Shown: piece after piece, positions 1,841 through 22,664 of the stretch | Numbering within the stretch: position 1 is the first letter of the stretch | Layout of the letters: every line of letters begins with the position of its first letter | Assembly: GCA_005880175.1 (NCBI GenBank) | Contig: VBJR01000166.1 | Span: forward strand, 1 to 23,433 | DNA length: 23,433 nt | Source of the DNA: Chloroflexota bacterium | GTDB taxonomy: Bacteria; Chloroflexota; Dormibacteria; Dormibacterales; Dormibacteraceae | Reading direction: 5' to 3' | Translations under genes and position numbers: made by a program | The notes under the pieces: generated by a model | The model's database searches: none | The model's input: only the letters and a program-made list of their open reading frames with translations | What the model was told of the DNA's origin: nothing

Positions 1841-1847
1841 GGCCGCC

Positions 1848-2510
1848 TCACCCCATCGCCTTCGCGGCGCGCTGCACCGCCGCGATGATGCTCATGTACG
1901 TGCCGCAGCGGCAGAGGTGCGGCGACGGCGGCGTGTTGGTGTAGGCGTCGCGGATCTGCGCCTCGGTCGGGTTGGGGATCCGCTCCAGGAGATCGACGGC
2001 GACCATCATCATGCCGCTCTGGCAGTAGCCACACTGCGGCACCTGCTGGTCGATCCACGCCTGCTGCACCGGGTGCAGCGTCTTCGCCGCCTGGTCGCCC
2101 GACAGGTTCTTCGCCTGCGCCCACCGCTCCGGCAGGCCTTCCAGCGTGATCACGTCCTGCTTGACCGTGGACCAGGCGGTGATGCACGAGCGGACCTCCC
2201 GCCCGTTCACCAGCACCGCGCAGGCGCCGCACTGGCCGAGGCCGCAGCCGAACTTGGGGCCCTTGAGGCCCATCTCGTCGCGGAGCACGTACAGCAGCGG
2301 CGTGTCGGGCGCCGCCTGGACCTGGTGCGTGCTCCCGTTGACGCGGATCGAGCCGGCCGGGATGGTCTGGCCGCTGTGCCTGACCACCTCGGCGACGGTG
2401 GCGGCGGCGGCCACCGCCACGACGGCCGCCCCCGCTCCGGCGGCGATCCGGGCACGGTCGGGCGGCGGGTCTGGGCTGCTGCCGGCAGGGCGCGCGTTCT
2501 CGTCAGCCAT
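1848..2510 (-). CDS. (2Fe-2S)-binding subunit of molybdenum hydroxylase, IorA-like, with N-terminal membrane anchor
   Basis: This is the electron-transfer subunit that pairs with the molybdopterin protein encoded just downstream. At 220 residues it is longer than the usual 150-160 because of an N-terminal extension with one hydrophobic segment (about residues 21-43), probably a membrane anchor or uncleaved signal. The plant-type ferredoxin cluster ligands are Cys89, Cys94, Cys97 and Cys109. The second cluster is bound by Cys160, Cys163, Cys200 and Cys202 (PQCGYCQSG and HLCRCGTY). The frame stays open to a GTG at 2540, but the ribosome site AAAGGAGAGG (2524-2533) lies inside that extension, so I chose the ATG at 2510. 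The gene follows the SDR gene on the same strand after a gap of about 105 nt that may hold its own promoter. Family assignment is strong; the substrate is unknown. Confidence 0.9.
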   Translation of the reverse strand: MADENARPAGSSPDPPPDRARIAAGAGAAVVAVAAAATVAEVVRHSGQTIPAGSIRVNGSTHQVQAAPDTPLLYVLRDEMGLKGPKFGCGLGQCGACAVLVNGREVRSCITAWSTVKQDVITLEGLPERWAQAKNLSGDQAAKTLHPVQQAWIDQQVPQCGYCQSGMMMVAVDLLERIPNPTEAQIRDAYTNTPPSPHLCRCGTYMSIIAAVQRAAKAMG

Positions 2511-2573
2511 CTCTGGCAACTCGCCTCTCCTTTCCCCCACCCACCCGCAGCCCGCAGGTGCAGAGCAACGATG

Positions 2574-2601
2574 ATGCTACGCCACCAGTTGTGAGCTGCA
2601 A
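2574..2601 (-). promoter_or_regulatory. Candidate promoter for the molybdenum hydroxylase pair
   Basis: On the minus strand TTGCAG (2596-2601) and TAGCAT (2574-2579) are separated by 16 nt, a plausible sigma-70-type -35/-10 pair. They lie in the only sizeable gap between the SDR stop and the 2Fe-2S subunit start. Such short motifs occur by chance, so this is weak evidence from pattern alone. Confidence 0.3.
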
Positions 2602-2615
2602 ATAGTTCGGGGACT

Positions 2616-3362
2616 CTACGCCATCGTCAGGCCGCCGCTCACGGACAGCGTCTGGCCGGTGACGTACGCCGCCTCGTCCGACGCGAAGAACGCCACCGCC
2701 GCCGCGATCTCCTCGGGCCGGGCCAGGCGGCGGAACGGGATCGCCTTGACCAGCGCGTCGCCGAGCCGCGGGTTGGCCTGGCGCGTCGCCTCCATCATCG
2801 GCGTGTCGGTCGGGCCCGGGCAGACCACGTTGACCCTGATGCCGTGGCGGGCCACCTCGCGGGCCACCGCCTTGCTGAAGCCGATGATGCCGGCCTTGGC
2901 GCCCGAGTAGACCACCTCGCCGCTGGAGCCCACGCGGCCGGCGTCCGAGCTGATGTTCACGATGGCGCCGCCGCCGCGCCCGATCATCCCGTCCAGCACC
3001 GCGCGCGTGCACGCGATCGTCCCGCGCAGATTGACCGCGATGACGCGGTCCCACGTCTCCTCCGTGCTCTCCAGGAACGGCTGGACCAGGTCCCAGCCGG
3101 CGCAGCAGACGAGCACGCCGACCGGGCCCAGCTGCCGCTCCGCCTCGGTCACCGCGGCCCGCATCGCCGACAGGTACGACACGTCGGCCTGCAGCGCGCA
3201 GCCGCGGTCGCCCAGCTCGGCGGCCGTCGCCCGGGCGCCCTCCAGGTTCAGGTCCACGGCCGCCACGCGGCAGCCCTCCTCGCCCAGCCGCAGCGCCACC
3301 GCGCGGCCGATGCCGCTGGCGGCCCCGGTCACGATCGCCACCTCGCCGTCGAATCCCCTCAT
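2616..3362 (-). CDS. Short-chain dehydrogenase/reductase, BadH-like (2-hydroxycyclohexanecarboxyl-CoA dehydrogenase type)
   Basis: This is an NAD(H)-dependent alcohol dehydrogenase of the classical SDR family, 248 residues and complete. The cofactor motif TGAASGIG is at 12-19, and Asp37 at the end of strand beta-2 favours NAD over NADP. CCAG at 86-89 replaces the usual NNAG. The catalytic residues are Asn111, Ser139, Tyr152 and Lys156. The stretches CAGWDLVQPF, SDAGRVGSSGEVVY, NVVCPGPTDTPM and the end GQTLSVSGGLTMA closely recall BadH of the cyclohexanecarboxylate (benzoate) pathway as I remember it. A beta-hydroxyacyl-CoA substrate is therefore plausible but not proven. The ATG at 3362 overlaps the HyuB stop (ATGA), indicating translational coupling and a shared operon with the hydantoinase genes. 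Cytoplasmic. Confidence 0.85.
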   Translation of the reverse strand: MRGFDGEVAIVTGAASGIGRAVALRLGEEGCRVAAVDLNLEGARATAAELGDRGCALQADVSYLSAMRAAVTEAERQLGPVGVLVCCAGWDLVQPFLESTEETWDRVIAVNLRGTIACTRAVLDGMIGRGGGAIVNISSDAGRVGSSGEVVYSGAKAGIIGFSKAVAREVARHGIRVNVVCPGPTDTPMMEATRQANPRLGDALVKAIPFRRLARPEEIAAAVAFFASDEAAYVTGQTLSVSGGLTMA

Positions 3363-4991
3363 GTCCGCACTCCGTACTCGCGTTCGGCCGCGGCCCGGCT
3401 GACCAGGCCCTCGGCCACGTCCTCCGCCACCTCGTCGGGCGGCCGCTCCCGGGGGTCGTGGTAGCCGCCGCCGCCCGGCAGCTCCAGCGTGAACGTGGCG
3501 CCGGCCGGCAGCGTCATGCTGAGCTTCGGGCTGCGCCGCACCCCGGTCGACCCACCCCGCGAAATCCGCACCCCGCCACCGCGATTTCGCGGGGACCCCG
3601 GGGACGTCCGGAAGCCGGCCCGAGCCCCCGGCCGCCCGCCCTCGTAGCCGGCGGCCGCCTGCGTGAACCGGTCGGACAGGACCGAGACCACGTACGGCTC
3701 GCCGGTCCGCACCTCCACCTCGATCACCTGGCCCAGCCCGCCGCGGCGCCGGCCGGGACCGCCCGAGTCGCGCCGGTACTCCTTGCGCCGGATCACCAGC
3801 GGGCTCGTGGACTCGATCACCTCGACCGGCGAGGCGGCCACGCCGCTCGGAAACGCGGTCGTCGAGAGGCCGTCGGCGGCCGGCCGGGCGCCCGTCCCGC
3901 CGGCCGAGAAGAACACGCCGACGAACCGCGTCGGGCCCGCCCCGCGGACGGTGGTCAGCCAGATGCCGCCCGCGCCCTCCGCGATGACCCGGCCCGGCAG
4001 CACCGGCTCCAGCGCGCCGAACACGGCATGGGGGATGTAGTGGCCCGCGATCTGGCGCGCCGCCACGGCCGCCGGGAACCGCGGGTTGAAGATCGAGCCC
4101 TCCGGCGCCGTCACGCGCACCGGCCGGAAGCTGCCGTCGTTGTGCGGCACCTCGGGCGCGACCGCGCACTTGAGCGCGTAGTTCGTGTACGCGGCCGTGT
4201 AGTTGAGGACCACGTTCATGCCCCGGTCCACCTGGTCCGAGCTGCCCGCGAAGTCGGCCGTGACCTCGTCGCCGCGCACCGACAGCCGGCACTGGATGCG
4301 GACCGGCTCGTCCAGGCCGTCCACGAAGCACGTCCGCTCGTAGTCGCCGTCGGGGATGGCGCGCAGCGCGTCGCGCATGGCCCGCTCCGAGCTCCAGGTA
4401 CGCGAGCAGGCGGTCGGCGCCGACCTGGTTGCCGGCCACCTGGGCGTGCAGGTCGCCCAGCACCTCCTCGGGCGCCCGCACGTTGGCGGCCAGGATCCGG
4501 TGCAGGTCGCGGTTCGGCTCGCCCCGCTCGTACAGCTTCGTGATCGGGATGGCGAGGCCCTCCTCGTACACCTCGCCCGCGTCGGCCGACAGCCCGCGCC
4601 CGCCGATGTCGATGGCGTGGCACGTGTTGCCGAAGAAGCCGACCAGGCGGTCGCCGCGGAAGACGGGCGTGACCACCGACAGGTCGTTGAGCTGGCCGGA
4701 CGTCATCCACGGGTCGTTCGTGATCAGCACGTCGCCGGTCGCCAGCGTCTCGGGCGGGTGGGCGGCCAGGAAGTGGCGCATGCCGGTCGCCAGCGAGTTG
4801 ATGTGGCCCGGCGTGCCGGTCACCGCCTGGGCGAGCATGCGGCCGCGCGCGTCGAACACGGCGGCGGAGAGGTCGCCCACCTCGCGCACGATCGGCGTGA
4901 ACGAGGTGCGCATCAGCGCGGCCGCCTGCTCGTTCGTGACCTGGATCAGCCGCGTCCAGAGGATCTCCAGCGTGACGGGGTCGATGCTCAT
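3359..4991 (-). CDS. hyuB: Hydantoinase B/oxoprolinase family protein, broken by an internal gap with frameshift
   Basis: This is the HyuB subunit of an ATP-dependent hydantoinase/5-oxoprolinase-type (or acetone carboxylase-like) enzyme, which works with HyuA to open or carboxylate a small substrate. The first part runs from ATG 4991 to about 4392 (MSIDPVTLEILWTRL, then TNDPWMTSGQLND, FFGNTCHAIDIGG and NVRAPEEVLGDLHAQVAGN). The protein then continues in another frame from about 4390 to the stop at 3359 (SERAMRDALRAIPDG, FPAAVAARQIAGHYIPHAVF, LELPGGGGYHDPRERPP). About 15-20 residues normally found between LLAYLE and SERAM are missing at the join, near a GAGCTC. Near the C-terminus a palindromic block adds residues not expected in the family. 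Start and stop overlap the neighbours as ATGA on both sides. The family is certain; whether the break is real or an assembly fault is open. Confidence 0.85.
3555..3594. repeat. Palindromic element inside the hyuB coding region
   Basis: The 12-nt arm CCCCGCGAAATC (3555-3566) is perfectly inverted as GATTTCGCGGGG (3583-3594) around a 16-nt loop. A smaller hairpin, CCGCG-AAAT-CGCGG on the minus strand, is nested at the boundary of the right arm. The AAAT/ATTT cores stand out in this GC-rich gene. The element encodes roughly PRNRGGGVRISRGGSTG, a low-complexity stretch that HyuB relatives lack as far as I recall, just before the conserved LPAG...LELPGGGGY end. It may be a REP-like element inserted in frame. 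No second copy was noticed in this window. Confidence 0.55.
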
Positions 4992-6851
4992 CCGGGCAGC
5001 TCCACCACCAGGTTGCCGTGCGCATCGATCTCGCCCGTGCCGCCGGGCCCGATCACCGCGGACGACTCGCGCTCCTCGACGACCGCCGGTCCGTGCACGC
5101 GCGCGCCCGGGGCCATGCGGTAGCGGTCCCAGACCTCGGCGTCCACGAACGCGCGCCGCTCCTCCGACCACACCGGGCGGCGGCCCTTGCGGGCGGGGCC
5201 GGCGGCGACGCCGGCGAGCCGCCGCCGGCCGTAGAGGTGGCTGTACGCGGCCTCGAACGCCTCCCGCACCTGGCCGGCCGGACGCCGGCCGTCCAGGGCG
5301 GCGCCGAGCGCCACCGTCACGCCCTCGCCCTGGCCGCGGTAGCGCACGTCGGCGGCGAGCGCGACCGTCACCTGGTCCGCCGGCACGCCGGCCCTCGCCA
5401 GGTGCGCGGCGCCCGCGGCCCGCATCGCCGCGAGGGCCTGGTGGACGTCCGCCCACCCCACCTCGCCCAGCCCGGCGGGCAGGCTGCGGGCGAAGTCGAA
5501 CGCGGGCGGCGCGGTGAGCATGCCGAACGCGGAGGCGACGCCAGCCGCCGGGGGCAGGACCAGCCGGCGGACGCCGAGGCGTCGTGCCACGCCCCACGCG
5601 TGGACCGGCCCGGCGCCGCCGGTGGCGACGAGGGCGAACCGGCGCAGGTCGCGGCCCCGCTCGATCGCGTGCATGCGGGCGGCGCCGGCCATGTTCTCGT
5701 CCACGACCTGGTGGATCGCGGACGCCGCCTCGGCCAGGTCCAGCCCCAGGCTGGCGGCCAGGCCGCCGACGGCCGAGCGGGCCGCGTCCACGTCGAGCGC
5801 CATCTCGCCGCCCAGGAAGAAGCCCGGGTCGAGGTTCGGCGCCGGCGCTCTCGGGGCCGACCTTGGGCAGGCCGAACCGGTCCACGCGGGCGATGCTGCC
5901 GCCGCCGGCCCCGATCTCGATCAGGTCGATGACCGGCACGCGCAGGGGCAGGCCGCTCTCGGGCGCGAAGCGGTAGACCCGGGCCACCTCGTGTTCCCGC
6001 GCCAGCAGCGGCTCGCCCGCCTCGATCAGCGCGGCCTTGGCGGTGGTGCCGCCCATGTCGAAGCCGAGCACGTCCCGCTCGCCGGCGGCCGCGCCCGAGA
6101 AGGCCGCGCTGAGGGCGCCCGCCGCCGGCCCCGACTCGGCCAGCCGGACCGGGAACCGGCGCCCGGTGTCCACCGCGGCCAGGCCGCCGGTCGACAGCAT
6201 CAGGTGGAGCGGGCAGCGCAGGCCGGCGTCCTCCAGGCGGCGCTCCAGCGTGGCCAGGTAGCGGTCCATCAGCGGCCTGACGTACGCGTTGGCGACGGTG
6301 GTGCTGGCGCGCACGTACTCGCCCAGCTCGGGCACGACGTCGCTGGAGGCGGAGACCGGCACGCCCGGCAGCTCCTCGGCCAGCAGGGCCGCCGCCCGCC
6401 GCTCGTGGTCCGGGTGCCGGTAGGAGTGGAGGAAGCAGACGGCGACCGCCTCGACGCCGGCGCGGCGCGCCCGGCCGGCCAGCCGGCGCACCTCGGCCTC
6501 GTCGAGCGGGCGGTCCACCGTGCCGTCCGCGAGCACCCGCTCGTCGACCTCCCAGCGCAGGCGGCGGGGCACGAGCGGCTCGGGCAGCTCGAGGAACAGG
6601 TCGTACAGGTCGTAGCGGTGCTCGCGCGCGATCTCGTAGGCGTCACGGAAACCACGCGTGGTGAGCAGGGCAGTTCGAGCGCCCTTGCGTTCGATCACCG
6701 CGTTGGTCACCAGGGTCGTGCCGTGAATGACGTGCTGGACCTGACCGGCGACGGCGGCGACGCGGCCCCCGACCAGCAGGACGAGGTCGGTGAACGTGCC
6801 GCCGATGTCGACGCCGATGCGGGCCCCGCCGGGCGCGGGTTCAGCGGGCAC
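4988..6851 (-). CDS. hyuA: Hydantoinase A/oxoprolinase family protein, with two internal gaps, one causing a frameshift
   Basis: This is the ATP-binding HyuA subunit (ASKHA fold) that partners HyuB in the next gene. The N-terminal part runs from GTG 6851 to about 5842: RIGVDIGGTFTDLV, HGTTLVTNAVIER, RLAESGPAAGAL, FDMGGTTAKAAL and IEIGAGGGSIARVDRFGLPK. The rest continues in another frame from about 5840 to the stop at 4988: NLDPGFFLGGEMALDVDAA, VVDENMAGAARMHAIERG, FALVATGGAGPVHA, DVRYRGQGE and a final Gly/Glu-rich strand. At the join, the block that normally reads like DPGPACYGRGG...TVTDAN after ESAGA is absent. A second, in-frame loss of about 30-35 residues lies near 6745-6755 (GGRVAAVA joined directly to GQVQHVIHG). 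The visible length of about 617 residues compares with the usual 680-700. The ATGA overlap with hyuB shows coupling. Upstream the frame is open into a HEPN remnant, so the true start is uncertain. Confidence 0.85.
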
Positions 6852-6960
6852 GCCGGCCGGCAGCCAGCTCCGCCGCGACCGCCGCCTTCAGTGGAGGCAG
6901 CGCGTCCGTGACGATGGCCCGCACCTGCTCGAGGCGCATCCGCTCCCGCTCGTCCCTCAC
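6852..6960 (-). pseudogene. Remnant of a HEPN (DUF86/HepT-like) gene, centre missing, reading into hyuA
   Basis: Directly after the nucleotidyltransferase, overlapping its stop as GTGA, a frame starts VRDERERM, the typical beginning of DUF86 HEPN proteins. It continues LEQVRAIVTDALPPLKAAVAAEL, the typical end of the same family. The middle, about 75 residues including the Rx4-6H ribonuclease motif, is missing at about 6930-6942. No stop follows; the frame runs into HyuA. MNT-HEPN pairs normally form toxin-antitoxin modules in which the MNT partner AMPylates the HEPN RNase. What remains here cannot be a working HEPN protein. The identification rests on the two short ends and on position. Confidence 0.55.
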
Positions 6961-7268
6961 AGCGCGACCGCGCCCCTCGACACCCGGGCGGTGAACTCGG
7001 GGGACGGGTCCTCGGTAACGTGCACGGGGCGGCCGAGCACCGTGCCCAGCTCCTCCTGCAGCCCGTCGAGCAGGCCGAAGTACGCGAACCCGCGCGGCTT
7101 CGGCTCGCGCAGGTCCACGAGCAGATCCACGTCGCTCTTCTCGTCCGCCGTGCCCCGCGCGACCGACCCGAAGACGCGCGGATTCTCCGCCCCCCTGGCC
7201 CGGAGGCTGCGCAGGATCTCCTCCCGCCGCGCCCGGACGTCCTCGATCGTGATGCGGCGCGCGCTCAT
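6957..7268 (-). CDS. Minimal nucleotidyltransferase (MNT domain, MntA-like antitoxin family)
   Basis: This is a small polymerase-beta-fold nucleotidyltransferase of 103 residues, the usual MNT size. The signature GS-x10-DxD is present as G34-S35 ... D46-V-D48 in the run FGSVARGTADEKSDVDLL. The third acidic position normally in a later strand (VDVV-like) appears to be His in GRPVHVTED, so catalysis may be altered. A start at 7277 is also open, but the GAGGGAGA ribosome site directly touches it, whereas it sits 9 nt before the ATG at 7268. The gene lies 31 nt after the thiol peroxidase stop and overlaps a HEPN remnant, which supports an MNT-HEPN toxin-antitoxin pair. Cytoplasmic. Confidence 0.8.
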   Translation of the reverse strand: MSARRITIEDVRARREEILRSLRARGAENPRVFGSVARGTADEKSDVDLLVDLREPKPRGFAYFGLLDGLQEELGTVLGRPVHVTEDPSPEFTARVSRGAVAL

Positions 7269-7299
7269 CGAACCCATTCTCCCTCAGCCGGAGAGCGGA

Positions 7300-7845
7300 C
7301 TACCCGGCCGCCGCCTCCCGGGCCGCGGCCAGCGCGGCGGCGTAGTCCGGCTCCGTCGTCAGCTCGCGCACGTACTCCACGTGGCGGATGCGGCCCTCGC
7401 GGTCGATCACGAAGACGGCGCGGCCGAGCAGGCGGTTCTCCTCCATCAGCAGTCCGTAGTCGATGCCGAACTGCTGGTTCATGTACGCCGAGGCCGTCGT
7501 GTGCGTCACGTCCGCCGCGCCGCACCAGCGGGCCTGCGCGAACACCAGGTCCATGCTGACCGTCAGCATCTCGACGTCGCCGCCCAGCGCCCGGCGCTCC
7601 TCTTCCCAGTGCCGCGTCTCGCGGTCGCACGTGGGCGTGTCCAGGGACGGCACGCAGCTCAGGATCAGCACCTTCCCGCGGTAGTCCGAGAGGTGCACCG
7701 GCGCCGGCACGAAGCCCTTGCCGGCCAGCTCCGCGTCGGGCGCCAGGTCGCCGGCCCTCAGCTCCTCGCCGATCGCCGTCAGCTCCTGGCCCCGCGCGGT
7801 GAACGCGCCCGGCCGCGTCGTGTAGGTCGCCAGGTCATCAGGCAT
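7300..7845 (-). CDS. tpx: Thiol peroxidase (atypical 2-Cys peroxiredoxin, Tpx)
   Basis: This enzyme reduces hydrogen peroxide and alkyl hydroperoxides using thioredoxin. It has 181 residues, slightly longer than the roughly 168 of E. coli Tpx. The peroxidatic site is SLDTPTCDRETR with Cys73, and the resolving Cys108 lies in FAQARWCGA, the spacing expected for Tpx. The conserved tail TTEPDYAAAL is present. The ATG at 7845 was chosen over an in-frame ATG at 7857 because GGAGG sits 5 nt upstream of it, inside the longer version. It is the first gene of the minus-strand block and is divergent from the hydrolase at 7925. Cytoplasmic. I see no sign of damage. Confidence 0.92.
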   Translation of the reverse strand: MPDDLATYTTRPGAFTARGQELTAIGEELRAGDLAPDAELAGKGFVPAPVHLSDYRGKVLILSCVPSLDTPTCDRETRHWEEERRALGGDVEMLTVSMDLVFAQARWCGAADVTHTTASAYMNQQFGIDYGLLMEENRLLGRAVFVIDREGRIRHVEYVRELTTEPDYAAALAAAREAAAG

Positions 7846-7885
7846 CGTCACCTCCATTCCGCGTGCGCGGCGTCCGCTCCCACCA

Positions 7886-7916
7886 GCCCGGGACCCGGGC
7901 GTCCGGAGAGTAGCAT
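7886..7916 (+). promoter_or_regulatory. Palindrome and candidate -10 element in the tpx/hydrolase divergent region
   Basis: GCCCGGG-A-CCCGGGC (7886-7900) is a perfect 7+1+7 palindrome in the 79-nt gap between two divergent genes. TAGCAT (7911-7916) follows and ends 8 nt before the hydrolase ATG, with no clear ribosome site. This is the arrangement expected for a leaderless transcript. No -35 was found. The interpretation is speculative. Confidence 0.25.
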
Positions 7917-7924
7917 CCGGGACC

Positions 7925-8736
7925 ATGGCGTACGCGACCGCGGCCGACGGAGTGCGACTCTGGTTCGAGGAGACCGGCTCCGGCTCGCCGGTCCTGTTCA
8001 TCCACGAGTTCGCGGGCGATCACCGGAGCTGGGAGCCGCAGGTGCGGGCCATGGCCCGCCGCCACCGCTGCGTCACGTACGACGCCCGCGGCTACCCCCG
8101 CTCCGACGTGCCGGAGGAGCGCACGTGGTCGGGCTGTCGATGGGCGGCTTCTGCACGCTCCACCTGGGCCTGCGCCACCCCGAGCGGGCGCTCTCGCTGA
8201 CGGTCGCGGGGTGCGGGTACGGCGCCCAGCCGGGCCTGCTGGAGCGCTGGCAGGCCGAGACGGAGGCGAGCGCCCGCTCGTTCGAGACCGACGGCGCGGC
8301 GGCCACGGCCGAGCGCTACATGGTGGGCCCGGCGCGGGTGCAGCTCCAGCGCAAGGATCCCCGCGGCTGGGAGGAGTCGAAGCGCTGGCTGGCCGAGCAC
8401 CCGCCGGCCGGCTCGGCCCTGACGCTGCGGGGCGTCCAGATGCGGCGGCCGTCGCTGTACGACCTCACCGACCAGCTCGCGCGCGTGCGGGTCCCCATGC
8501 TGCTGGTGACCGGCGACGAGGACGAGGGCTGCCTGGAGCCGAACCTCATGCTCAAGCGGACGATCCCGACGGCCGCGCTGGCGGTGCTGCCGCGGACCGG
8601 GCACGCCTGCAACCTGGAGGAGCCGGCGCTGTTCAACCGCCTGGTGCTGGACTTCGTCGCGGCCGTCGAGGCGGGCCGCTGGGAGCCGCGCGATCCGCGC
8701 TCCCTGGGCGCCAGCCTGACCGGCATGGAGCGGTAG
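7925..8736 (+). CDS. Alpha/beta hydrolase, broken by an internal gap with frameshift
   Basis: This is a serine hydrolase of the alpha/beta fold; the substrate is unknown (ester, lactone or similar). The first part, from ATG 7925 to about 8119, encodes the N-terminal strands: LFIHEFAGDHRSWEPQ (oxyanion region), VTYDARGYPRSDVPEE. From about 8119 the protein continues in another frame: AHVVGLSMGGF with the nucleophile Ser in G-x-S-x-G, the cap region, then LLVTGDEDEG (acid) and PRTGHACNLEEP (catalytic His). The segment of about 25-30 residues that normally links the two parts (the helix before the nucleophile elbow) is missing at 8116-8122. All three catalytic residues survive, but in two frames. 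The stop directly abuts the GTG start of the next gene, so the two form an operon. Confidence 0.8.
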
Positions 8737-9555
8737 GTGCGCTACGGCTGGGTGCTCCCCTACGGGGACGCCCGGACCGCCGCCGACCTCGCCGCGCTCG
8801 CCGAGCGCCACCGCTGGGACGGGTTCTTCGTCTGGGAGGCGGTCTGGGGCATCGACGCCTGGGTCGCGCTGGCCGCCGCCGCCATGCGGACCGAGCGCAT
8901 CCGGCTGGGCACGATGCTCACGCCGCTGCCGAGGCGCCGGCCCTGGGACGTGGCCGGGCAGGTGGCGACGCTGGACAACCTGTCCGGCGGCCGGACCATC
9001 CTGAGCGTCGGGCTGGGCGCGCCCGACGACCGCTGGTGGCTGTTCGAGGACGATCCGGGCCGCCGGGTCCGCGCCGAGCGGCTCGACGAGGGCCTGGAGC
9101 TGATGGGCCGCCTGTGGAGCGGCGAGCCCGTGAGCTTCGAGGGCGCGCACTACCGGGCCCGCCCGGCCGACCGGCTGGTGCCGCCGCCGCCGGTGCAGCG
9201 GCCGCGCGCGCCGGTCTGGGTGGTGGGCGCCTGGCCGCGGCCGAAGTCGATGCGCCGGGCCGCGGCGTGGGACGGCTGGATCCCCAACTACGCACCCCGC
9301 GAGGGCGAGGGGGAGCTCACGCCCGAGCTCCTGCGGGCCGGCGTCGAGTGGGTGCGCGAGCGCCGCGCGGCCGCCGGCCTGACCATGGACGGCTACGACG
9401 TGGTTGCCGAGGGCACGACGACCGACCCCGGGGAGCCGGCCGAATGGGCCGCCGCCGGGGCGACGTGGTGGCTGGAGGCGGACTGGTCGAGCATGGACCC
9501 GGACGCGGTGCGCGAGGCCGCCCGGGCCCGGTTGAGCGCAGGGCCGCCCCGCTGA
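8737..9555 (+). CDS. LLM class flavin-dependent oxidoreductase, F420-type
   Basis: This is a bacterial luciferase-like TIM-barrel oxidoreductase of 272 residues, probably using coenzyme F420 or FMN. Recognisable segments are WDGFFVWEAVWGIDAWVALAA, RTERIRLGTMLTPLPRRRPW, VATLDNLSGGRTILSVGLGA, RAERLDEGLELMGRLWSGEP and the end GATWWLEADW. The GTG start at 8737 immediately follows the hydrolase TAG (TAGGTG), which points to translational coupling; GGAG lies a few bases upstream. It is followed by two hairpins and a convergent gene. The length and all blocks look intact. The substrate is unknown; cofactor preference is inferred from the family, since F420 use is common in high-GC Gram-positives and Chloroflexota. 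Confidence 0.85.
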   Translation: MRYGWVLPYGDARTAADLAALAERHRWDGFFVWEAVWGIDAWVALAAAAMRTERIRLGTMLTPLPRRRPWDVAGQVATLDNLSGGRTILSVGLGAPDDRWWLFEDDPGRRVRAERLDEGLELMGRLWSGEPVSFEGAHYRARPADRLVPPPPVQRPRAPVWVVGAWPRPKSMRRAAAWDGWIPNYAPREGEGELTPELLRAGVEWVRERRAAAGLTMDGYDVVAEGTTTDPGEPAEWAAAGATWWLEADWSSMDPDAVREAARARLSAGPPR

Positions 9556-9619
9556 GCCGGATTCCGCCGACGGAGGCGGACGCGGCGCCGAGTCGCCGAC
9601 TGTTCGGTGGAATCCGGCT
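9555..9619. repeat. Long imperfect inverted repeat after the oxidoreductase gene
   Basis: AGCCGGATTCCGCCGA (9555-9570) pairs with TCGGTGGAATCCGGCT (9604-9619) with a single mismatch over 16 nt and a 33-nt loop that itself contains CGGCGCCG. It begins at the last base of the TGA stop. It may act as a terminator or RNA-stabilising hairpin, or be a palindromic repeat of a dispersed family. Confidence 0.6.
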
Positions 9620-9629
9620 GAGAACGGAT

Positions 9630-9659
9630 GCGGCCCCTCCGGGGGAGCGGAGGGGCCGC
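9630..9659. terminator. Hairpin between convergent genes, probable bidirectional terminator
   Basis: GCGGCCCCTCCG (9630-9641) pairs perfectly with CGGAGGGGCCGC (9648-9659), a 12-bp GC stem with a 6-nt loop. No T-rich tract follows on either strand, which is common in high-GC bacteria. It lies between the plus-strand oxidoreductase and the minus-strand membrane protein gene, where both transcripts must end. Confidence 0.6.
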
Positions 9660-9679
9660 GACTGTGGAAGGGATGTTCG

Positions 9680-10291
9680 CTACGGGTGGGCCGAGGGCTT
9701 GCCGTGGCCGTGGTCGCCGTTGTTCCCGTTGCCGACCTGCCCCCCGGCGTTCTGGGCCGGGGCCTGGTTCTGACCCTGACCCTGGGCACCCGACTGGCCG
9801 TTGTCGCTGCCGGCGCCCTTCGGCGGCTGGCCGTTCTCCTGGCTCTCGCGCTGGCCGGGCTTCGGGCTCGGGCTGGCGCCGGTGTGAGTGGTCGACTGGC
9901 TGTGCTGGGCGCTCGTCTGCTCGCCGTGCTGCCGGGCGAAGGCGCTGACGCACTGGCCGACGTTCGTGTCGGCGGCCTTGCACTGCGCGACCACCTGGAC
10001 CACGTGCTGCCCCCAGTTCACGGGGTTCGCGCTGTGGGTGCTGGCGGTGCCCGCGGCCGCACCCGCGGCCAGAGCGACGACTGCGCCCCCCAGCAGAGAC
10101 TTTGCCCCCAGGGCTGCGCCAATGCCGAATCGAATCGGTGTCACGCGGCCTCCTTGGTGTCGGGGAGCGACCCGGTACCGGGCCTCGGCCGGCCGGGGCA
10201 CCGGTCCCAGCTCCGGATCGAGGGCGGTGCGAAGCTGTCCGCGGAGCCAGCGGTCGAAGTCGGCGCCCGGATCGCTACCCGTCGGTGTCAT
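9680..10291 (-). CDS. Small single-pass membrane protein with Gln/Gly-rich tail, paired with ECF sigma factor
   Basis: A 203-residue protein of no family I recognise. Residues 1-50 are soluble and charged (DFDRWLRGQLRTAL), followed by one hydrophobic segment at about 55-82. A short ordered part with two cysteines (Cys104 and Cys114) comes next. From about residue 125 to the end there is a low-complexity tail rich in Gln, Gly, Ser, Pro and Asn. The ATG at 10291 overlaps the sigma factor stop as ATGA, so both are made together. The topology (cytoplasmic N-terminus, membrane helix, extracytoplasmic tail) and the position fit an anti-sigma factor or a membrane sensor, but no zinc-binding anti-sigma (HxxxCxxC) motif is visible. 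Function is inferred from context only. Confidence 0.75.
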   Translation of the reverse strand: MTPTGSDPGADFDRWLRGQLRTALDPELGPVPRPAEARYRVAPRHQGGRVTPIRFGIGAALGAKSLLGGAVVALAAGAAAGTASTHSANPVNWGQHVVQVVAQCKAADTNVGQCVSAFARQHGEQTSAQHSQSTTHTGASPSPKPGQRESQENGQPPKGAGSDNGQSGAQGQGQNQAPAQNAGGQVGNGNNGDHGHGKPSAHP

Positions 10292-10845
10292 TCGTCCCAG
10301 GGAACGCTGGTGACCAGCGCAGTACGCCACTCCCGTCCGTCGGCGAGCCGCCGCTGCAGCTGCGCCCGGGCCCGGATGAGCCGCGAGGCGACCGTCCGCT
10401 CGGGGATGCCGAGGGCGTGCGCGATGTCGCGGTTGGAGTAGCCGTGGTAGTGGCGGAGGACGAGCGCGGCCGCCTGCTTGGGCGGCAGGGCGCGGAGCTC
10501 GCGGAGGAGGTCCCAGCGCGCCGCCAGGTCCGTCGTCTCCGACTGCTCGGGCGCGCCGAGGCGGCGGATGAGCTCGCCCACCTCGCGCAGCCGCTCCCGG
10601 CGGCGCCACGAGATGGCCATGTTGATCGCGATGCGGTGCAGCCACGCCTCGGCGGGCGCGGCCGGCTTCCACTCCGCCCAGGAGCGATAGGCGCGCAGGA
10701 ACGCCTCCTGGGCGCAGTCCTCGGCGGCCGCGCGGTCCCGCAGCAGGGCGAGCACGGTGCCCAGCACCCGCTGGTACGTGGCGGTGTACAGCCGGTCGAA
10801 GTCCTCCCGGCTGCCGGGTCGGTAGCGAGGCGGTTCGGTGTCGAT
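10288..10845 (-). CDS. RNA polymerase sigma-70 factor, ECF subfamily (5' end unclear)
   Basis: This is a group 4 sigma factor of about 185 residues. Region 2 is DFDRLYTATYQRVLGTVLALLRDRAAAEDCAQEAFLRAY followed by the DNA-contacting AEAWLHRIAINMAISWRRR. Region 4 is LRALPPKQAAALVLRHYHG with the helix-turn-helix SNRDIAHALGIPERTVASRLIRAR. It directs polymerase to a specialised regulon, probably in response to a signal relayed by the overlapping downstream membrane protein. The frame has no ATG, GTG or TTG near the expected N-terminus. The homologous sequence begins at about 10845 with an ATC, and the next usable start lies inside region 2. The 5' end and the divergent promoter region therefore look incomplete; coordinates at that end are approximate. 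Confidence 0.85.
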   Translation of the reverse strand: MDTEPPRYRPGSREDFDRLYTATYQRVLGTVLALLRDRAAAEDCAQEAFLRAYRSWAEWKPAAPAEAWLHRIAINMAISWRRRERLREVGELIRRLGAPEQSETTDLAARWDLLRELRALPPKQAAALVLRHYHGYSNRDIAHALGIPERTVASRLIRARAQLQRRLADGREWRTALVTSVPWDE

Positions 10846-10890
10846 TCCACCAGGGACAACGCGCGAGGACCCGCGACTACGCCCGGCATC

Positions 10891-11802
10891 ATGGCGAACC
10901 CGGCGCACCCGAGGCACGGCGGGCTCGGCCAGATGGGTTCCCGGATCGCCGAGCGACTGCTGGAGGCCGGCCACCGCGTCACCGGCTGGAACCGGACGCG
11001 AGCCAAGGCGGAGTGGCTGATCGAGCGCGGGATGCGTTGGGCCGACACGCCTCGCGACGTGGCGCTGGCCTCCGACGTCGTCTTCAGCATGGTGACCGAC
11101 ACGGCGGCGCTGCGGCACGTGACCGGCGGCGAGCACGGCCTGCTGGCCGGCCTCGGCGAGGGCAAGGTCTACGTGGACATGAGCACCGTCAGCCCGGCCG
11201 CCAGCGGCGAGCTGGCCGTGCGCGTGCGCGAGACCGGCGCCCGGATGCTGGACGCGCCCGTGTCCGGCTCGCTCGTGACGCTGGAGGAGGGCCGGCTGTC
11301 GCTGATGGTCGGCGGCGACCCGGAGACGTTCGAGCGGGTGCGGTCGGTGCTGCGCGACATCGGGCCCACCGTCACCCACGTCGGCCCCAACGGGCACGGG
11401 GCGCTGATGAAGATCGCGACCAACCTGGGCCTGGCGGTCCAGATGCTCGCGTTCAGCGAGGCCGTGCTGCTGGCGGAGAAGGGCGGCATCGCGCGGGAGA
11501 CCGCCGTCCACGTCCTGACCAACTCGGCGATCGCCTCGCCCATGGTCAGGTACCGGGGCCCGTTCGTCCTCCAGCAGCCCGACGAGGCCTGGTTCGACGT
11601 CGGCATGATGCAGAAGGACCTGCGGCTGGCCCTGGAGGCCGCCCTCGAGACCGACGTGCCCCTGCCCACCACCGCCGTCACCAACGAGTTCCTCACGGCG
11701 GCCCGGGGCATGGGCCTCGGCGACTACGACTTCGCGATCGTGTTCGACGTGCTGGCCGCGATGGCGGGCGTCGAGGTCCGCAGGGACGGAGGGGAGCGAT
11801 GA
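10891..11802 (+). CDS. NAD(P)-dependent oxidoreductase, 3-hydroxyisobutyrate dehydrogenase family (N-terminus possibly damaged)
   Basis: This is a beta-hydroxyacid dehydrogenase of 303 residues that oxidises a 3-hydroxy acid or reduces the matching semialdehyde. The Rossmann motif GLGQMG is at about 11-16. The substrate-binding block DMSTVSPAASGELA and the DAPVSGSLVTLEEGRLSLMVGG segment follow, then the catalytic Lys in GHGALMKIATN. The hydrophobic first beta strand that should precede GLGQMG is replaced by PAHPRHG, and no ribosome site is visible before the ATG at 10891. A piece at the 5' end is probably missing here, as in the divergent sigma gene. The stop overlaps the start of the M24 gene (ATGA), so they form an operon. 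Confidence 0.82.
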   Translation: MANPAHPRHGGLGQMGSRIAERLLEAGHRVTGWNRTRAKAEWLIERGMRWADTPRDVALASDVVFSMVTDTAALRHVTGGEHGLLAGLGEGKVYVDMSTVSPAASGELAVRVRETGARMLDAPVSGSLVTLEEGRLSLMVGGDPETFERVRSVLRDIGPTVTHVGPNGHGALMKIATNLGLAVQMLAFSEAVLLAEKGGIARETAVHVLTNSAIASPMVRYRGPFVLQQPDEAWFDVGMMQKDLRLALEAALETDVPLPTTAVTNEFLTAARGMGLGDYDFAIVFDVLAAMAGVEVRRDGGER

Positions 11803-13025
11803 GCGCGAAGACCCGGACGTACGGCGCGATGGGCGTGGACTGGGAGGCGCGGGTGGACTTCGAGCGGCTCCGCACGCAGCGCCTGGCCCGAGCCAGGCGG
11901 ATGCTGACGGAGTCGTCGCTGGGCGCCCTGCTCTGCTTCGACATGAACAACATCCGCTACCTGACGGCGACCCACATCGGCACCTGGGCGCTGGACAAGG
12001 CGGCCCGGTTCGCGCTGCTGCCGCAGGGCGGGGAGCCCATCATGTGGGACTTCGGCTCCGCGGCGCGCCACCACAAGCTGTACTGCCCCTGGCTGGGCGA
12101 CGAGCGCTCCCGCGCCGGCATCTCCACCATGCGCGGGACGTTCAGCCCCGAGATGGGCAGGGCCGAGGACGTGGCCAGGAAGATCCGGGTCGAGCTGGAG
12201 GCGCACGGCCTGCTCGGCGAGCCGCTGGGCGTGGACATCGTGGAGCCGCCCGTGCTGTTCGCGCTCCAGGCCGAGGGCATCCAGGTGGTGGACGGCCAGC
12301 AGCTCATGCAGGACGTGCGCCTGATCAAGACGGGCGACGAGATCACGCTGCTCTCGACCGCGTGCGCGATGGTGGACGCCGCGTACGACCACCTCTACCA
12401 GGCGCTCCGCCCCGGCATCCGCGAGAACGAGTGCGTGGGCCTGGTCACGAAGGTGCTGCACGACATGGGGTCGGAGTTCGTGGACGGCGTCAACGCGATC
12501 ACCGGCGAGCGCGCGAACCCGCACCCGCACGTGTACACGGACCGCGCCCTGCGGCCGGGCGGCAGCGCGTCGCCGGCGCTGGTGGACGCGTATCGCCGCT
12601 GCCGCGACATACTCGACCAGGCGATCGCGATGATCCGGCCCGGCGTCACCACCGCCGAGGTGGCGGCGACGTGGCCGGCGGCGACCGAGTTCGGGTTCCC
12701 CGACGAGGAGTCCGCGTTCGCCCTGCAGTTCGGCCACGGCTGCGGCCTCTCGCACTGGGAGAAGCCGATCTTCAGCCGCCTGGTCTCCCTCGACCACCCG
12801 CAGGTGATCGAGGAGGACATGTGCTTCGCGCTGGAGACGTTCTGGCCCTCCACGGACGGCTGGTCCGCCGCCCGGATCGAGGAGCAGCTGGTGGTCACCG
12901 CCGGCGGCTGCGAGGTGATCACGCGGTTCCCGGCGGAGCAGCTGCTGGTCGCGGGCCAGCGCTACTGGACGGTGACGGGCCCGCTGGCGACGACGCGCGA
13001 GGTGCAGTCGAACCTGAACGCGTAG
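11799..13025 (+). CDS. M24 peptidase-fold protein (Xaa-Pro peptidase/DddP-like) lacking its central metal-ligand block
   Basis: This protein of 408 residues has the pita-bread fold of aminopeptidase P-type enzymes. The N-terminal creatinase-like domain (about 1-175) contains DMNNIRYLTATHIGTWALDK. The catalytic domain retains His313 (FGHG), Glu346 (FALETFW) and Glu361/Glu362 (AARIEE). Between RPG (252-254) and SASPALVDAY about 25 residues are missing in frame, where relatives carry a segment like YFDI...GYRTCYYRTF that supplies the two metal-binding Asp residues. As written, the protein should not bind its dimetal centre. GGAGGGGAG precedes the ATG, which overlaps the dehydrogenase stop. Close relatives as I recall them include DMSP lyase DddP and Xaa-Pro dipeptidases; the real substrate is unknown. 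The convergent stress protein gene ends 16 nt away. Confidence 0.85.
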   Translation: MSAKTRTYGAMGVDWEARVDFERLRTQRLARARRMLTESSLGALLCFDMNNIRYLTATHIGTWALDKAARFALLPQGGEPIMWDFGSAARHHKLYCPWLGDERSRAGISTMRGTFSPEMGRAEDVARKIRVELEAHGLLGEPLGVDIVEPPVLFALQAEGIQVVDGQQLMQDVRLIKTGDEITLLSTACAMVDAAYDHLYQALRPGIRENECVGLVTKVLHDMGSEFVDGVNAITGERANPHPHVYTDRALRPGGSASPALVDAYRRCRDILDQAIAMIRPGVTTAEVAATWPAATEFGFPDEESAFALQFGHGCGLSHWEKPIFSRLVSLDHPQVIEEDMCFALETFWPSTDGWSAARIEEQLVVTAGGCEVITRFPAEQLLVAGQRYWTVTGPLATTREVQSNLNA

Positions 13026-13041
13026 CCGCCAGCGGTGGGCC

Positions 13042-13878
13042 TCAGCGGACCGCCGCCTGGCGAACGTGGCGGGCCAGCAGCACCGGCCGGCGGAGCTGGT
13101 GGATGACCTCGTGGCCGACGCTCCCCAGCACCAGGCCGCCCAGGTGCGACGGCCGCCGGGAGCCGAGCACGACCAGGTCCGCGCCATGCCGCCGCGCCGC
13201 GGCCACGATGGCGCCGGCCACAGAGGGGTCGGTCACGATCTCGCCTGTGGCCCGGGCCCCGCCGGCCTCGACCGCATCCACGCCCCGGCGCAGGATGCCC
13301 TCGGCCTCCTGGTCCGTCTCCGTCACGCCGGCGGCCGCCACGGTCGCCAGCGGCACGACGTGGAGGACGCGCACCTCCGCACCGAACCCGGACGCGACGC
13401 GGGCCGCCTCGGCCGCCGCCTCGTCCGACGTCGGCGAGCCGTCCACCGCCAGCAGCACCGTCCGCGGCTCGGCCGGGGCCGGGGGCTGGAACGGCGCGTG
13501 CAGCACCAGCATCGGCGCCTCCAGGCGGCTGGCCGCCGACTGGCCGACGCTGCCCAGCAGCAGCGCGCCCACCTCCGAGCGGCCGTGCGAGCCGAGCACG
13601 ACCAGATCGGCATGGGCGCCGGCCTCCGCCACGACCGCGCCCACGTCGTCGCCCGGGCCGAGCGGCCGGATCTCGCCCTCGGCCGCGATGCCCTCCTCCC
13701 GGAGCGTGTCCACGACCGCCGTCACCAGCCGCCGGCCGGCGCCATTGGGAGCGTCCGGACGGGCCACGTGGAGGACCCGGACGCCGGCGTCCCACCGCCG
13801 CGCGTACGCGCCGACCACCGGCAGGGCGGCCGCCAGCATCTCGTCGTCGTCGATCGCGAACAGGATGGTCCGTTCCAT
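13042..13878 (-). CDS. Tandem universal stress protein (two UspA domains)
   Basis: A 278-residue cytoplasmic protein made of two UspA domains (about 1-128 and 138-270). Each carries the ATP-binding signature G-2x-G-9x-G-(S/T): GSHGRSEVGALLLGS at 96-110, and GSRRPSHLGGLVLGS at 239-253, where Arg-Pro replaces the usual His-Gly. Such proteins help cells survive starvation, hypoxia or redox stress; the molecular role is poorly defined. The frame is open to 13989, but the ATG at 13878 has GGAGG 9 nt upstream and starts the domain exactly (MERTILFAIDDDEM), so it was chosen. It lies 146 nt downstream of the CoA-transferase stop on the same strand, so it may have its own promoter. Intact. Confidence 0.9.
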   Translation of the reverse strand: MERTILFAIDDDEMLAAALPVVGAYARRWDAGVRVLHVARPDAPNGAGRRLVTAVVDTLREEGIAAEGEIRPLGPGDDVGAVVAEAGAHADLVVLGSHGRSEVGALLLGSVGQSAASRLEAPMLVLHAPFQPPAPAEPRTVLLAVDGSPTSDEAAAEAARVASGFGAEVRVLHVVPLATVAAAGVTETDQEAEGILRRGVDAVEAGGARATGEIVTDPSVAGAIVAAARRHGADLVVLGSRRPSHLGGLVLGSVGHEVIHQLRRPVLLARHVRQAAVR

Positions 13879-14024
13879 CACCGCCTGCCTCCGGGGGTGC
13901 GCCTCGCTGGCTCGACGGCCGGTGCCGGGCACACCCCGGAGGGCTCTACCAGCCGTCTGTTGCTCGATCCGCTGCGCAGCGATCGTCATTCACAGGAACC
14001 GGCGCGCCCGCCCGGTCATTCGGC

Positions 14025-15215
14025 TCAGACGACGCCGCGGCGGCGCAGGTCGGCCACCCGCTCGGGCGAGAGGCCCAGCTCCGCCAGCAGCTCCGCCGTG
14101 TGCTGGCCCGGCTCGGGGCTGGGCGCGCGCACGCTGGCCACCGCCCGGCTGGTCGTGACCGGCGCCCGCACCAGGTCCAGGTGCCCCAGCACCGGGTGCT
14201 CCACGCCGGCCACCATCTCCAGGTGGCCCACCTGGGGGTCCGCGAACGTCTCGTCCACCCGGTAGACGGGCCCCGCCGGCACCCCGGCCTCGTTGAGAGC
14301 GCTCACCCACTCGGCCGTCGGGCGCTGGCGCAGGCGCCCCGCGATCAGCGCGTTGAGCTCGGGCCGGGCCGCCGTCCGCTTCGCGACCGTGTCGTAGCGC
14401 GGGTCGCGGGCCAGCTCGGGCAGCCCGACCACGGCGCACAGCGCGTCCCACAGCCGGCCGCCCGCGCCCGCGACGTTGAGATGGCCGTCGGCGGTCTCGA
14501 AGCAGCCCATCGGCGTCATCGTCGGGTGGTTGTTGCCCTCCTGGCCGGGCACCTCGCCCGCGACGGTCCAGCGCGCCGCCTGGAAGTCCATCATCGCGAT
14601 CATCGCCTCGAGCAGGGACGTCCGGACCCACTGGCCCTCGCCGGTCCGGTCGCGCTCGTGCAGCGCGGCCAGGATGGCGACGGTGAGGTAGAGCCCCGCC
14701 GCCAGGTCGGAGACCGGGATGCCCACCCGGGTCGGCCCCGTGCCCGGCAGGCCGGTCACGCTCATCAGCCCGCCCATGCCCTGGGCGATCTGGTCCACGC
14801 CGCCGCGGCCGGCGTACGGGCCGGTCTGACCGAACCCCGAGATCGACGCGTACACCAGCCGCGGGTTGCGCGCCCGCACGGTCTCGTAGTCGAACCCCAG
14901 CCGGTGCTTGACGGGCGGCCGCATGTTCTCGACCAGCACGTCCGCGCCGTCCACCAGCCGCATCAGCAGGTCGCGGCCCTCGGCCGACTTGAGGTCGAGC
15001 GTCAGGCAGCGCTTGTTGCGGTGGAGGTTCTGGAAGTCCGGGGTGTGCCGGCGCTCGTCCATCTGGTCGCCGGCCGCGACGCCGGCCGGCGGCTCGACGC
15101 GGACCACGTCGGCGCCCCAGTCCGCCAGCTGCCTGACGCAGGTCGGCCCGGCCCGCGCGACGGTCAGGTCGATGACGCGCACGTCGGCGAGCGGCAGGCC
15201 GTTGTCCGCTGGCAT
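14025..15215 (-). CDS. Family III CoA-transferase (CaiB/BaiF, formyl-CoA transferase-like)
   Basis: This enzyme transfers CoA between carboxylic acids through an enzyme-bound mixed anhydride. It has 396 residues, the usual family length, and is complete. The catalytic Asp is Asp170 in GIPVSDLAAGLY, equivalent to Asp169 of formyl-CoA transferase. Other family blocks are RVIDLTVARAGPTCVRQLADWGADVVRVE, NKRCLTLDLKSAEGR, NMRPPVKHRLGFDYE, ISGFGQTGPYAGRGGVDQIAQGMGG, and NNHPTMTPMGCFETADGHL. A GTG at 15233 is also in frame; neither start has a convincing ribosome site, and I prefer the ATG at 15215. A strong hairpin separates it from the GH2 gene upstream. The acyl substrate cannot be predicted. Confidence 0.9.
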   Translation of the reverse strand: MPADNGLPLADVRVIDLTVARAGPTCVRQLADWGADVVRVEPPAGVAAGDQMDERRHTPDFQNLHRNKRCLTLDLKSAEGRDLLMRLVDGADVLVENMRPPVKHRLGFDYETVRARNPRLVYASISGFGQTGPYAGRGGVDQIAQGMGGLMSVTGLPGTGPTRVGIPVSDLAAGLYLTVAILAALHERDRTGEGQWVRTSLLEAMIAMMDFQAARWTVAGEVPGQEGNNHPTMTPMGCFETADGHLNVAGAGGRLWDALCAVVGLPELARDPRYDTVAKRTAARPELNALIAGRLRQRPTAEWVSALNEAGVPAGPVYRVDETFADPQVGHLEMVAGVEHPVLGHLDLVRAPVTTSRAVASVRAPSPEPGQHTAELLAELGLSPERVADLRRRGVV

Positions 15216-15237
15216 CTGAAGGGCACTGTACACGGGA

Positions 15238-15270
15238 GCCGGCCGCGCCCCACGTCGGGGCGCGGCCGGC
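15238..15270 (-). terminator. Strong hairpin after the GH2 gene
   Basis: GCCGGCCGCGCCCC (15238-15251) pairs perfectly with GGGGCGCGGCCGGC (15257-15270), a 14-bp GC stem with a 5-nt loop, 8 nt after the GH2 stop. No T tract follows. It probably terminates the ROK-GH2 transcript before the CoA-transferase gene. Confidence 0.7.
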
Positions 15271-15278
15271 CAGCCGCG

Positions 15279-18200
15279 CTACCGGATGGACGTCACGGGC
15301 GCGGCCCAGTCGCCGGCCGGCCCGATCTCGCCGCCGCCCGACACGTGGACCAGCGGCACCACGCTGCGCGGCGCGTCCCCCGCCACGCCGACCCCGAGCG
15401 TGACCGGGCTCCGGGCCGCGACCGCCAGCGAGACGCCCGGCCGCGTCACGCACGTGACCGTGGCGGTCGAGCACGCCCAGTCCGCGCCGCCGGACAGGGA
15501 CCGCGCGGACAGCCCCCCGGGCAGCTCCACCGCCAGCGTGACCTGCCCGCTCGTCGCCGCGAAGCCGGCGTTGGCCACCGTGATCGTGTACTGGTTGGCG
15601 CCGGCGCCCCTCGCGAACGGCGCGTACGGCACGCCGCCCGCCGACTGGAGCACCGTGACGCCCAGGTCCGGCCGCTGCCGGACCGCCGTCTGGTCGGTCG
15701 CCGTCATCGCGGCGGGCGCGGGCCCGCCCCCCAGCACCGTGACCGCGTTGGTCAGCGACGGCTGGGCGCCGTCCTCGACCGCGGCCGTCAGCGTGATCGG
15801 CGGGTACGCGGCCCCGGCGGCCAGCGGGTCGGAGCGGCCGCACGTCGCGAGCGGCGAGGAGCTGTTCAGCGGCCCCGGCAGGGCGGCCGGCTGCAGGCTG
15901 CACGACCAGCCCTCGCCGGTCATCCGGACGGCCGACATCCCGGCCGGCAGGGTGTCCACGACCGTCACCGTGCCCTGGCTGGCCCGGGTCGCGGACGTGT
16001 TGCGGACGGTCAGCGTGTAGCGGTCGGCCCCGTCGCCCTGGGCGAAGGCGCCGGCGTGCGCGCTGGCGACGGCCAGCTGGCCGGCCGGCAGCGTTGCCGC
16101 GGCGGGCGCCGCCACGACCGGCGTCGGCGCGCTGATCGTCCGCGCTCCCCTCCGCTCCCCGCCGCCGGAGACGGTCACCTTCTGCGTGACGGTGGCCGGC
16201 GCGTTGGCCGCCACGCGCACGACCAGGGTGATCGCCGCTGCCGTACACCGCCACGGCCTGCTCGGCGGCCGGCAGCTTGAATTCAGCGACGATCGGCGCG
16301 GTCGTCGCGCCGGCGCCCTGGTTGATCACCGTCACCTGGTAGCGGTCGGCGCCGTCCCCCTGCCGGAGCGCGCCCGCGAGCGCGTCGTCGGCCGTCAGGT
16401 TGGCCGAGCCGGTGACCGGGGTCGCGGCCGCGACCGAGGCGGACGGCCGCGCCGGGGCGCCGCCCGCGACCGAGGCCGCGTCCACCACGTGCAGGCCGGC
16501 CGCCGAGCTCTGGCTGCCGGAGCCGGCCAGGGCGGAGACGCCGACCTTCAGCGTCAGGGGCGGGAACGACCGGCCCGGCGCCAGCACCGCCGGCCGGCCG
16601 CCCGCGCCGCCGCTCTCCGTGCACACCTCGGTCGGGTCGTTCGACGTGTCGCACGTCCAGCCCGAGCCCGCGATCGAGACCAGGCTCAGGTCCTGGTCCA
16701 CCACGTCGGTCAGGGTCACCGGCGTCGTCCCGTCCGTCGGCGCCGTGCCGGTGTTCGTCACCGTCAGCGTGTACGTGTCGCTCGCGTCGCCCTGGACGAA
16801 GCTGGCCGGCGACGGGCTGACCGCGACCTTCCAGGCCACGTGCGGCCCGGCGGGCGCGGCCACGGCGGCCGGACCGGGCCCGGCGCCGGCCGCGGCCGGA
16901 TCGGGCGTGCCGGCGACGACCGGCGTCCCGTCGAAGCCGCCGAAGTGCTCGACGCCGGCCTCGGCGGCCGCCGCCCGCTGGGCCGTCACGGCCGCCGCGT
17001 CCTCGCCGGCGGGCACCGTCGCGGCCGGGACGTTCCAGCCGCTCACGCTGACCACCGGCTGGCGGCCGCCCAGCAGCGCCGTGTCGTACCGGGCGGTCAG
17101 GGTCTGCGACTGGCCGGGCCACAGCGTGACGTCGTTGTCGCTCCAGGTGATCGGCACGACCTGGTTGTCGCCGGCCTGGTCGCGGCGGACGTCGGCGCGC
17201 AGGAAGAACGCGACGGCCGGCGCCGGCGCGGGGTTCGTGAGCGTGACCCGGGTGACCGTCTGGCCGCCGTCGGTCTCGCTGCTGGCCACTGCCCGCACGC
17301 CCGTCCGCGCCAGGCCCTGGAGCGCCCGCAGGTCGCCGAACTGGGGCAGGCCCGACGTCGTGGCGCTGGTCAGCGCCTGCGGGTTGCCCTGCGTGTCCGT
17401 CCAGTCCACCACGTCCTTCTGCGTGGAGAGCCAGTACACGTTGCGGTCCACGACGGCGCCGCGCTGGCGGACGACCAGCTCCACCCAGTACGCCTGGGCG
17501 GGCGCGGGCGGCGCGGTGGTGGCCGGGACCCGCGGTGTGAGCACCGCGCCGTGGACGTCCTGGCTGGGCAGGCTGATCCCGCTCGCGACCTGGTCGTCCA
17601 GCACGGCGCCGGCGAAGTCGTGGACCCGCGCCTCGACCGAGACGTCGGGCTGAGTCACGCCGGACAGGTTGTCCAGCGCCACGGTGCCGGTGTCGTACGC
17701 GTAGATGGCGTGCAGCTCCGCGTTCGCCTTCTTGGCCCCGAAGAAGCTGCCGGCGGTGTCGTAGTCGTAGTTGTAGAGGTCCCACAGCAGCGTCGGCCAG
17801 CCCTTGTTGAGCTGCCAGTAGATCGTGCCGGTCGAGGGCGTCGGGCCGTTCGTCCAGTGGTCCACGAACGCCTCGAACTGGGCTCGCGTGTCCTCGTAGT
17901 TCTGGACCTGCGCCTGCTGCACGTACTGGGCCAGGCTGGACCACGCGCCATAGCGGTTGGTGATCGCCTGGTCCAGGTTGAACAGCGTGCCGAACGTGTA
18001 GCCGACGTGGCCGCCGTCGTCCGACTCGTAGTTCGAAACCGCTGGATCGAGTCCGGCGTCGGCACGGTCTGGCCGGCGCTCTGCTCGCTGTCGAAGCTCC
18101 ACGCCCCGCCGACGTTCGTCTGCGTCGAATCGTTGTCCACGGCGTTCGAGCTGGTGTGCGTGGAGTCGTACCAGTACGCCGGCGGCACCCAGTCGTACGG

Positions 18201-19865: not shown

Positions 19866-19917
19866 CGTCCCCTCTCCCTCGCCGCTCCCCCGCGGCTCGC
19901 TCAGATCGCCGCCGTCG

Positions 19918-21129: not shown

Positions 21130-21132
21130 GTC

Positions 21133-21161
21133 TTGCCAACCATGGATTAGGAAACTATCCT
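21133..21161 (+). promoter_or_regulatory. Candidate promoter of the permease-kinase operon
   Basis: TTGCCA (21133-21138) and TATCCT (21156-21161) are spaced 17 nt apart, close to the consensus sigma-70 pair. The -10 lies inside the operator-like palindrome, so a bound repressor would block polymerase. It leaves an untranslated leader of about 65 nt before the permease ATG. Confidence 0.5.
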
Positions 21162-22657: not shown

Positions 22658-22664
22658 CCGCCGG

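Follow-up and report, generated by a model that had tools for sequence, protein, structure and literature searches.

Ten joins lacking family-conserved sequence in a high-GC metagenome contig are probably scaffold gaps that were closed up

Several neighboring genes in the stretch of DNA studied here (23,433 bases at its full length, hereafter the window) read cleanly on both sides of a point at which a short conserved block is missing, and the question is whether the organism or the assembly has lost these blocks. An earlier note on the window had named eight such joins (near 4392, 5841, 6750, 6936, 8119, 12561, 16236 and 18039) together with a probable ninth in the intergenic region 10840-10915, and had favored an artefact of a GC-rich assembly, with scaffold gaps collapsed or N runs stripped, over an unusual deletion process. 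The window belongs to a high-GC metagenome contig with relatives of Candidatus Dormibacterota type, and does not contain a single N. Each join was read in three frames, after which the loss was measured against relatives from 43 genomes of one phylum: G001 (locus L001), a MAG carrying the title Bacillota, and 42 more. These genomes appear to be Dormibacterota-type, and for that reason the Bacillota title of the G001 record may be wrong. Searches of the window for tRNAs and for Rfam matches at gathering score yielded none, a plasmid search returned nothing beyond short hydantoinase matches, and no viral match was obtained with the SDR protein as query.

Family sequence is missing at each of the eight joins named in the note and at two more (Table 1). 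The probable ninth was located at 10916/10917, where the dehydrogenase lacks its first strand, and a tenth, near 5210-5227, lies beyond the original list, which was therefore right in every entry but somewhat short in its count. The sizes proposed for the missing blocks, mostly about 15-35 residues and in one case about 75, agreed with those found by comparison with relatives.

Table 1. Joins at which sequence present in relatives or homologous repeats is absent from the window
Feature	Position	Strand	Observation
Hydantoinase B join	4392..4393	-	50 nt absent, frame change
Hydantoinase A C-terminal domain join	5210..5227	-	about 20-25 residues absent, in frame
Hydantoinase A join	5835..5841	-	71 nt absent, frame change
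Hydantoinase A N-terminal domain join	6727..6775	-	about 84-87 nt absent, in frame
HepT-like (HEPN) gene join, next to nucleotidyltransferase gene	6930..6940	-	75 residues absent, in frame
Alpha/beta hydrolase join	8118..8119	+	73 nt absent, frame change
3-hydroxyisobutyrate-dehydrogenase-like gene, join at 5' end	10916..10917	+	relatives match only from 10917 on
M24 Xaa-Pro peptidase join	12559..12561	+	72 nt absent, in frame
DUF11 repeats behind GH2, join	16220..16240	-	about 25-37 residues absent, frame change
GH2 exo-beta-D-glucosaminidase-like gene join	18038..18041	-	about 58 nt absent, frame change

Alignment to relatives, which the earlier note had proposed as a way of measuring the missing lengths, gave values that were constant, between 50 and 73 nt, at the best-covered joins. 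For the M24 peptidase, the additional 72 nt were present in 20 of 20 genomic copies, and all 38 aligned proteins had the corresponding 24 residues; among 120 homologues, the window's protein was alone in having an internal gap of at least 10 well-occupied columns. At the hydantoinase A join at 5835-5841, the extra 71 nt were found in all 14 relatives, with the best break after 5835, while 13 of 14 relatives had the extra 50 nt of hydantoinase B, with the best break after 4392 (the 14th, L042, is unaligned there, and the break was placed with 12 of the 13). The alpha/beta hydrolase was longer by 73 nt in eight of nine relatives, the ninth being read as 70 nt with these settings and all nine as 73 nt with others. 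Regarding the two remaining joins in hydantoinase A, the conserved-core stretch missing near 5210-5227 was present in 11 of 11 relatives, and the loss came to 72 and 75 nt against the two best-aligned of 14 loci, with scattered values from the others; near 6750, the window has 28-29 residues fewer than two of 15 loci, these two being the ones readable by our search patterns (13 were unreadable), and the DNA-based gap positions (6727-6774) and size estimates were scattered.

Similar limits of readability apply to two further joins. The minus-strand nucleotidyltransferase gene (Pfam, 6957-7277) is accompanied by a short neighbor at 6850-6960, without a Pfam match, which is probably its HepT-like partner and which is cut by the join at 6936; it is 75 residues shorter than its counterpart in G003 (L118), the sole relative readable by the search patterns among 11 loci. 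The join at 10916/10917 falls within the first codons of the dehydrogenase, with the matches of relatives starting at 10917 or later and the Pfam match beginning at profile position 6; the first strand of the NAD-binding fold, absent in the window, is present in eight of 12 relatives, comprising all the readable ones (four loci were unreadable by the search patterns).

The joins in the GH2 and DUF11 region were judged on protein evidence, since no convincing DNA relative of either was found among the 43 genomes. For the join at 18039, whose two flanks were found in 120 and 116 of 120 proteins, exactly 20 residues separate the measuring motifs in 109 proteins as compared with 2 nt in the window, hence a loss of about 58 nt. 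The other 11 proteins lack the motif pair used for measuring: in seven the block is present but its motif varies, one has most of the block and then ends, two end before it and one reads differently there. Internal gaps of at least 10 well-occupied columns occur in six of the 120 GH2 homologues, and the two GH2 pieces of the window showed no further private gap except one of 89 columns at the start of the right piece, which is the end of the alignment. At 16236, Pfam recognizes DUF11 on either side of the join, with the loss sized by eye from neighboring repeats only. The whole region (15279-19865, minus strand) apparently encodes an exo-beta-D-glucosaminidase-like GH2 protein fused to several DUF11 repeats.

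The window losses were common to none of the relatives examined, the nearest proteins being 88-90% identical and same-species sequence lying outside the comparison. The earlier note had regarded the same shortened proteins in close relatives as a sign against damage; they were looked for in the relatives examined and not found. For the M24 peptidase, those nearest proteins are of metagenomic origin, and its named matches are few, comprising Candidatus Dormibacteraeota (79%) and other phyla. Counting private losses of at least 30 nt, we found a single one in 64 gene copies of the relatives (77 kb, five genes), and at least one per gene in four of these five genes of the window. The single case resides in the M24 gene of G033 (L274, G033:C7:93800-96800), which has a private, clean, in-frame loss of 75 nt in 20 of 20 comparisons. 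It resembles the window's losses in these respects and in the lack of any N (none over the 107 kb of its sequence examined), but differs in being a single case, at a different place in the gene, in an open frame that starts with another protein, which by sight we take to be nitroreductase-like. At one point a DNA match across the join that lacked the extra 72 nt seemed to indicate that G033 shares the M24 loss of the window; this was rejected, as the block missing from the window is present in G033, whose own loss of 75 nt adjoins that place.

What the joins look like at the level of nucleotides bears on how they arose. At the four joins tested of the ten (M24, hydrolase, hydantoinase B and hydantoinase A), the two sides share 0-2 nt, i.e. 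they are blunt, and the identity of the flanks to relatives stays about level up to the break, which is sharp in hydantoinase A and M24 and less sharp in the hydrolase and hydantoinase B. These data together indicate that no read or k-mer overlap made the four tested joins. No direct repeat of at least 18 nt was detected within 500 nt at any join, the single repeat of this length being a pair of universal stress domains. Repeat-mediated deletion was accordingly rejected for want of flanking direct repeats (at least 18 nt, within 500 nt; four joins blunt), and false overlap merging was rejected on the blunt junctions at four joins and the lack of repeats.

Blunt joins would also be left by end joining in a living cell, and we therefore weighed the proposal that the blocks were lost in real, recent deletions of 50-230 nt sealed in this way, either in genes from which selection had just lapsed or under an active deletion process. 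Two other observations fit with it: the private 75-nt loss in G033, and the lack of any preference for keeping frame, which is kept at four of the nine genic joins (5218, 6750, 6936 and 12561), with three expected without selection, and broken at the other five, so that several joins do change frame, as had been stated. Despite these points, we regard real deletions as very unlikely, as evidenced by: 1) the ten lesions within 13.6 kb are of one class, with no other frameshifts or internal stops noticed in an unsystematic reading of the open frames and Pfam matches; 2) the relatives' gene copies hold but the one private loss in 77 kb; 3) codon bias is intact on either side of the joins, where the window departs from relatives mainly at third codon positions, like the dehydrogenase and SDR controls. 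The earlier judgment that independent recent deletions are unlikely was supported. Decaying bacterial genes usually carry small indels and stops too. The window resembles bacterial pseudogene decay in its broken frames but differs from it in the single lesion class noticed, in losses unshared with relatives and in its intact codon bias; mixed lesions with relaxed codon constraint were not seen. A more elaborate version, in which preferred blocks of about 71-75 nt are repeatedly excised and bluntly resealed across Dormibacterota genes (in the window and once in G033), seems to us highly improbable; in the sources that a literature search brought up, no description of a deletion process of this kind was seen.

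Composition is another conceivable cause, given that every kilobase of the window but one has a G+C content of 72-79% (the exception, at 21-22 kb, has 67%). If the missing blocks were the most GC-rich parts of their genes, short reads might have left them uncovered. One report on vertebrate draft assemblies describes false gene losses linked to GC and repeats (PMC9516821), which resemble the window in that gene parts are missing from the assembly and not from the organism, but differ from it in that the window's blocks are not consistently GC-extreme. As measured in relatives, the GC percentiles of the missing blocks within their genes were 2 for M24, 49 for the hydrolase, 23 for hydantoinase B and 78 for hydantoinase A, i.e. 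four of the ten joins. Local GC dropout was rejected as a general cause on these values and is, in our estimate, scarcely credible. Of the earlier reading, the closed gaps fit with most results, and GC-rich sequence at the blocks as their cause is not supported. Graph tangles from shared sequence were likewise rejected as a general cause on the same four joins, with the missing blocks at conservation percentiles of 75, 3, 9 and 94, respectively, in relatives.

The sizes and positions of the losses provide further constraints. As compared with uniform points, the range of the joins is narrower, with P = 0.057 for nine joins and about 0.037 for ten (same formula, by hand), and the clustering is thus only mild. 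In the control stretches 1-3360, 13000-15260 and 19880-23433, the last of which has weak matches only, no like joins were noticed, with the wholeness of the genes there judged by Pfam coverage, a coarse measure. Four losses (5210-5227, 5835, 8118 and 12560) are close to one another in size, at about 72-75, 71, 73 and 72 nt, a closeness that random gaps do not explain. The smallest loss found in the window is 50 nt. One way to arrive at several losses of 71-75 nt, and at the N-free loss of 75 nt in G033, is an assembly fault without Ns, whereby an assembler or gap closer butts or trims ends, perhaps by a preferred length and maybe in G033 as well. We consider this unlikely, as losses elsewhere in the window measure 50, about 58, about 85 and 225 nt, the 0-2 nt common to the two sides of the four tested joins exclude a false overlap merge there, and the joins have no repeat of at least 18 nt within 500 nt.

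N runs that are still in place were seen in related records. The MAG G019, which was selected for follow-up after Ns had appeared in one of its loci, has, within the 5.4 kb of L263 (G019:C101:20001-25412), runs of 50, 130, 25, 46 and 85 nt, four of the five in a 1.2-kb stretch at the end of the contig. The 20 kb ahead of L263 are free of N, and two more contigs of G019 have runs of 9, 66, 17, 20 and 80 nt. G031 and G032 carry one run each, of 42 and 31 nt, and six other stretches had none. The N runs of such short-read MAG scaffolds (9-130 nt in G019) resemble the window's losses in size and clustering, and closing runs of the G019 type would yield the pattern of the window. They differ in that the window is without Ns, with ends butted and losses of 50-225 nt, none shorter having been found. 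Against closed-up N runs, the sizes of 71-75 nt are closer together than those in G019, and no loss falls below 50 nt although G019 has runs of 9-46 nt. The genome loci retain Ns (six runs in 489 kb, with overlap between some loci) and the viral loci have none in 1.13 Mb, a difference that decides nothing for the source of the window. Among the titles and listings returned by a literature search, no paper on the stripping of Ns from metagenome records was found.

Taken together, we put a probability of roughly 0.8 on closed-up scaffold gaps, most likely produced by the deletion of N runs, and consider it very likely that an artefact of some kind is responsible. The missing lengths, constant within each set of relatives and unshared with any relative examined, count in favor of closed-up gaps, as do the blunt joins, the third-position bias on both sides of joins, the keeping of frame at about the chance rate, the spread of the blocks over GC and conservation percentiles, and the N runs of G019. 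We surmise that pieces of a short-read metagenome assembly were ordered by read pairs with unread gaps between them, and that these gaps, of about 50-90 nt and in one case about 225 nt, would then have been closed up, most likely when their N runs were deleted. We infer that the joins were once marked by Ns, later removed in a processing step. Because G033 has a like loss without an N, a cause other than N stripping retains some probability. The biology behind the losses is probably not there, and the living organism presumably has intact genes; the losses would acquire biological meaning only if reads showed the blocks to be truly absent.

In databases, unmarked joins of this sort appear as frameshifts, shortened proteins and gene losses that are not real, and they would mislead gene annotation. 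Should a shared processing step be at fault, further records would be affected as well, and G033 may be one of them. The M24 peptidase of the window is already such a short database entry, a protein of 408 residues from a contig of 52,375 bases, standing as the one member of its protein cluster.
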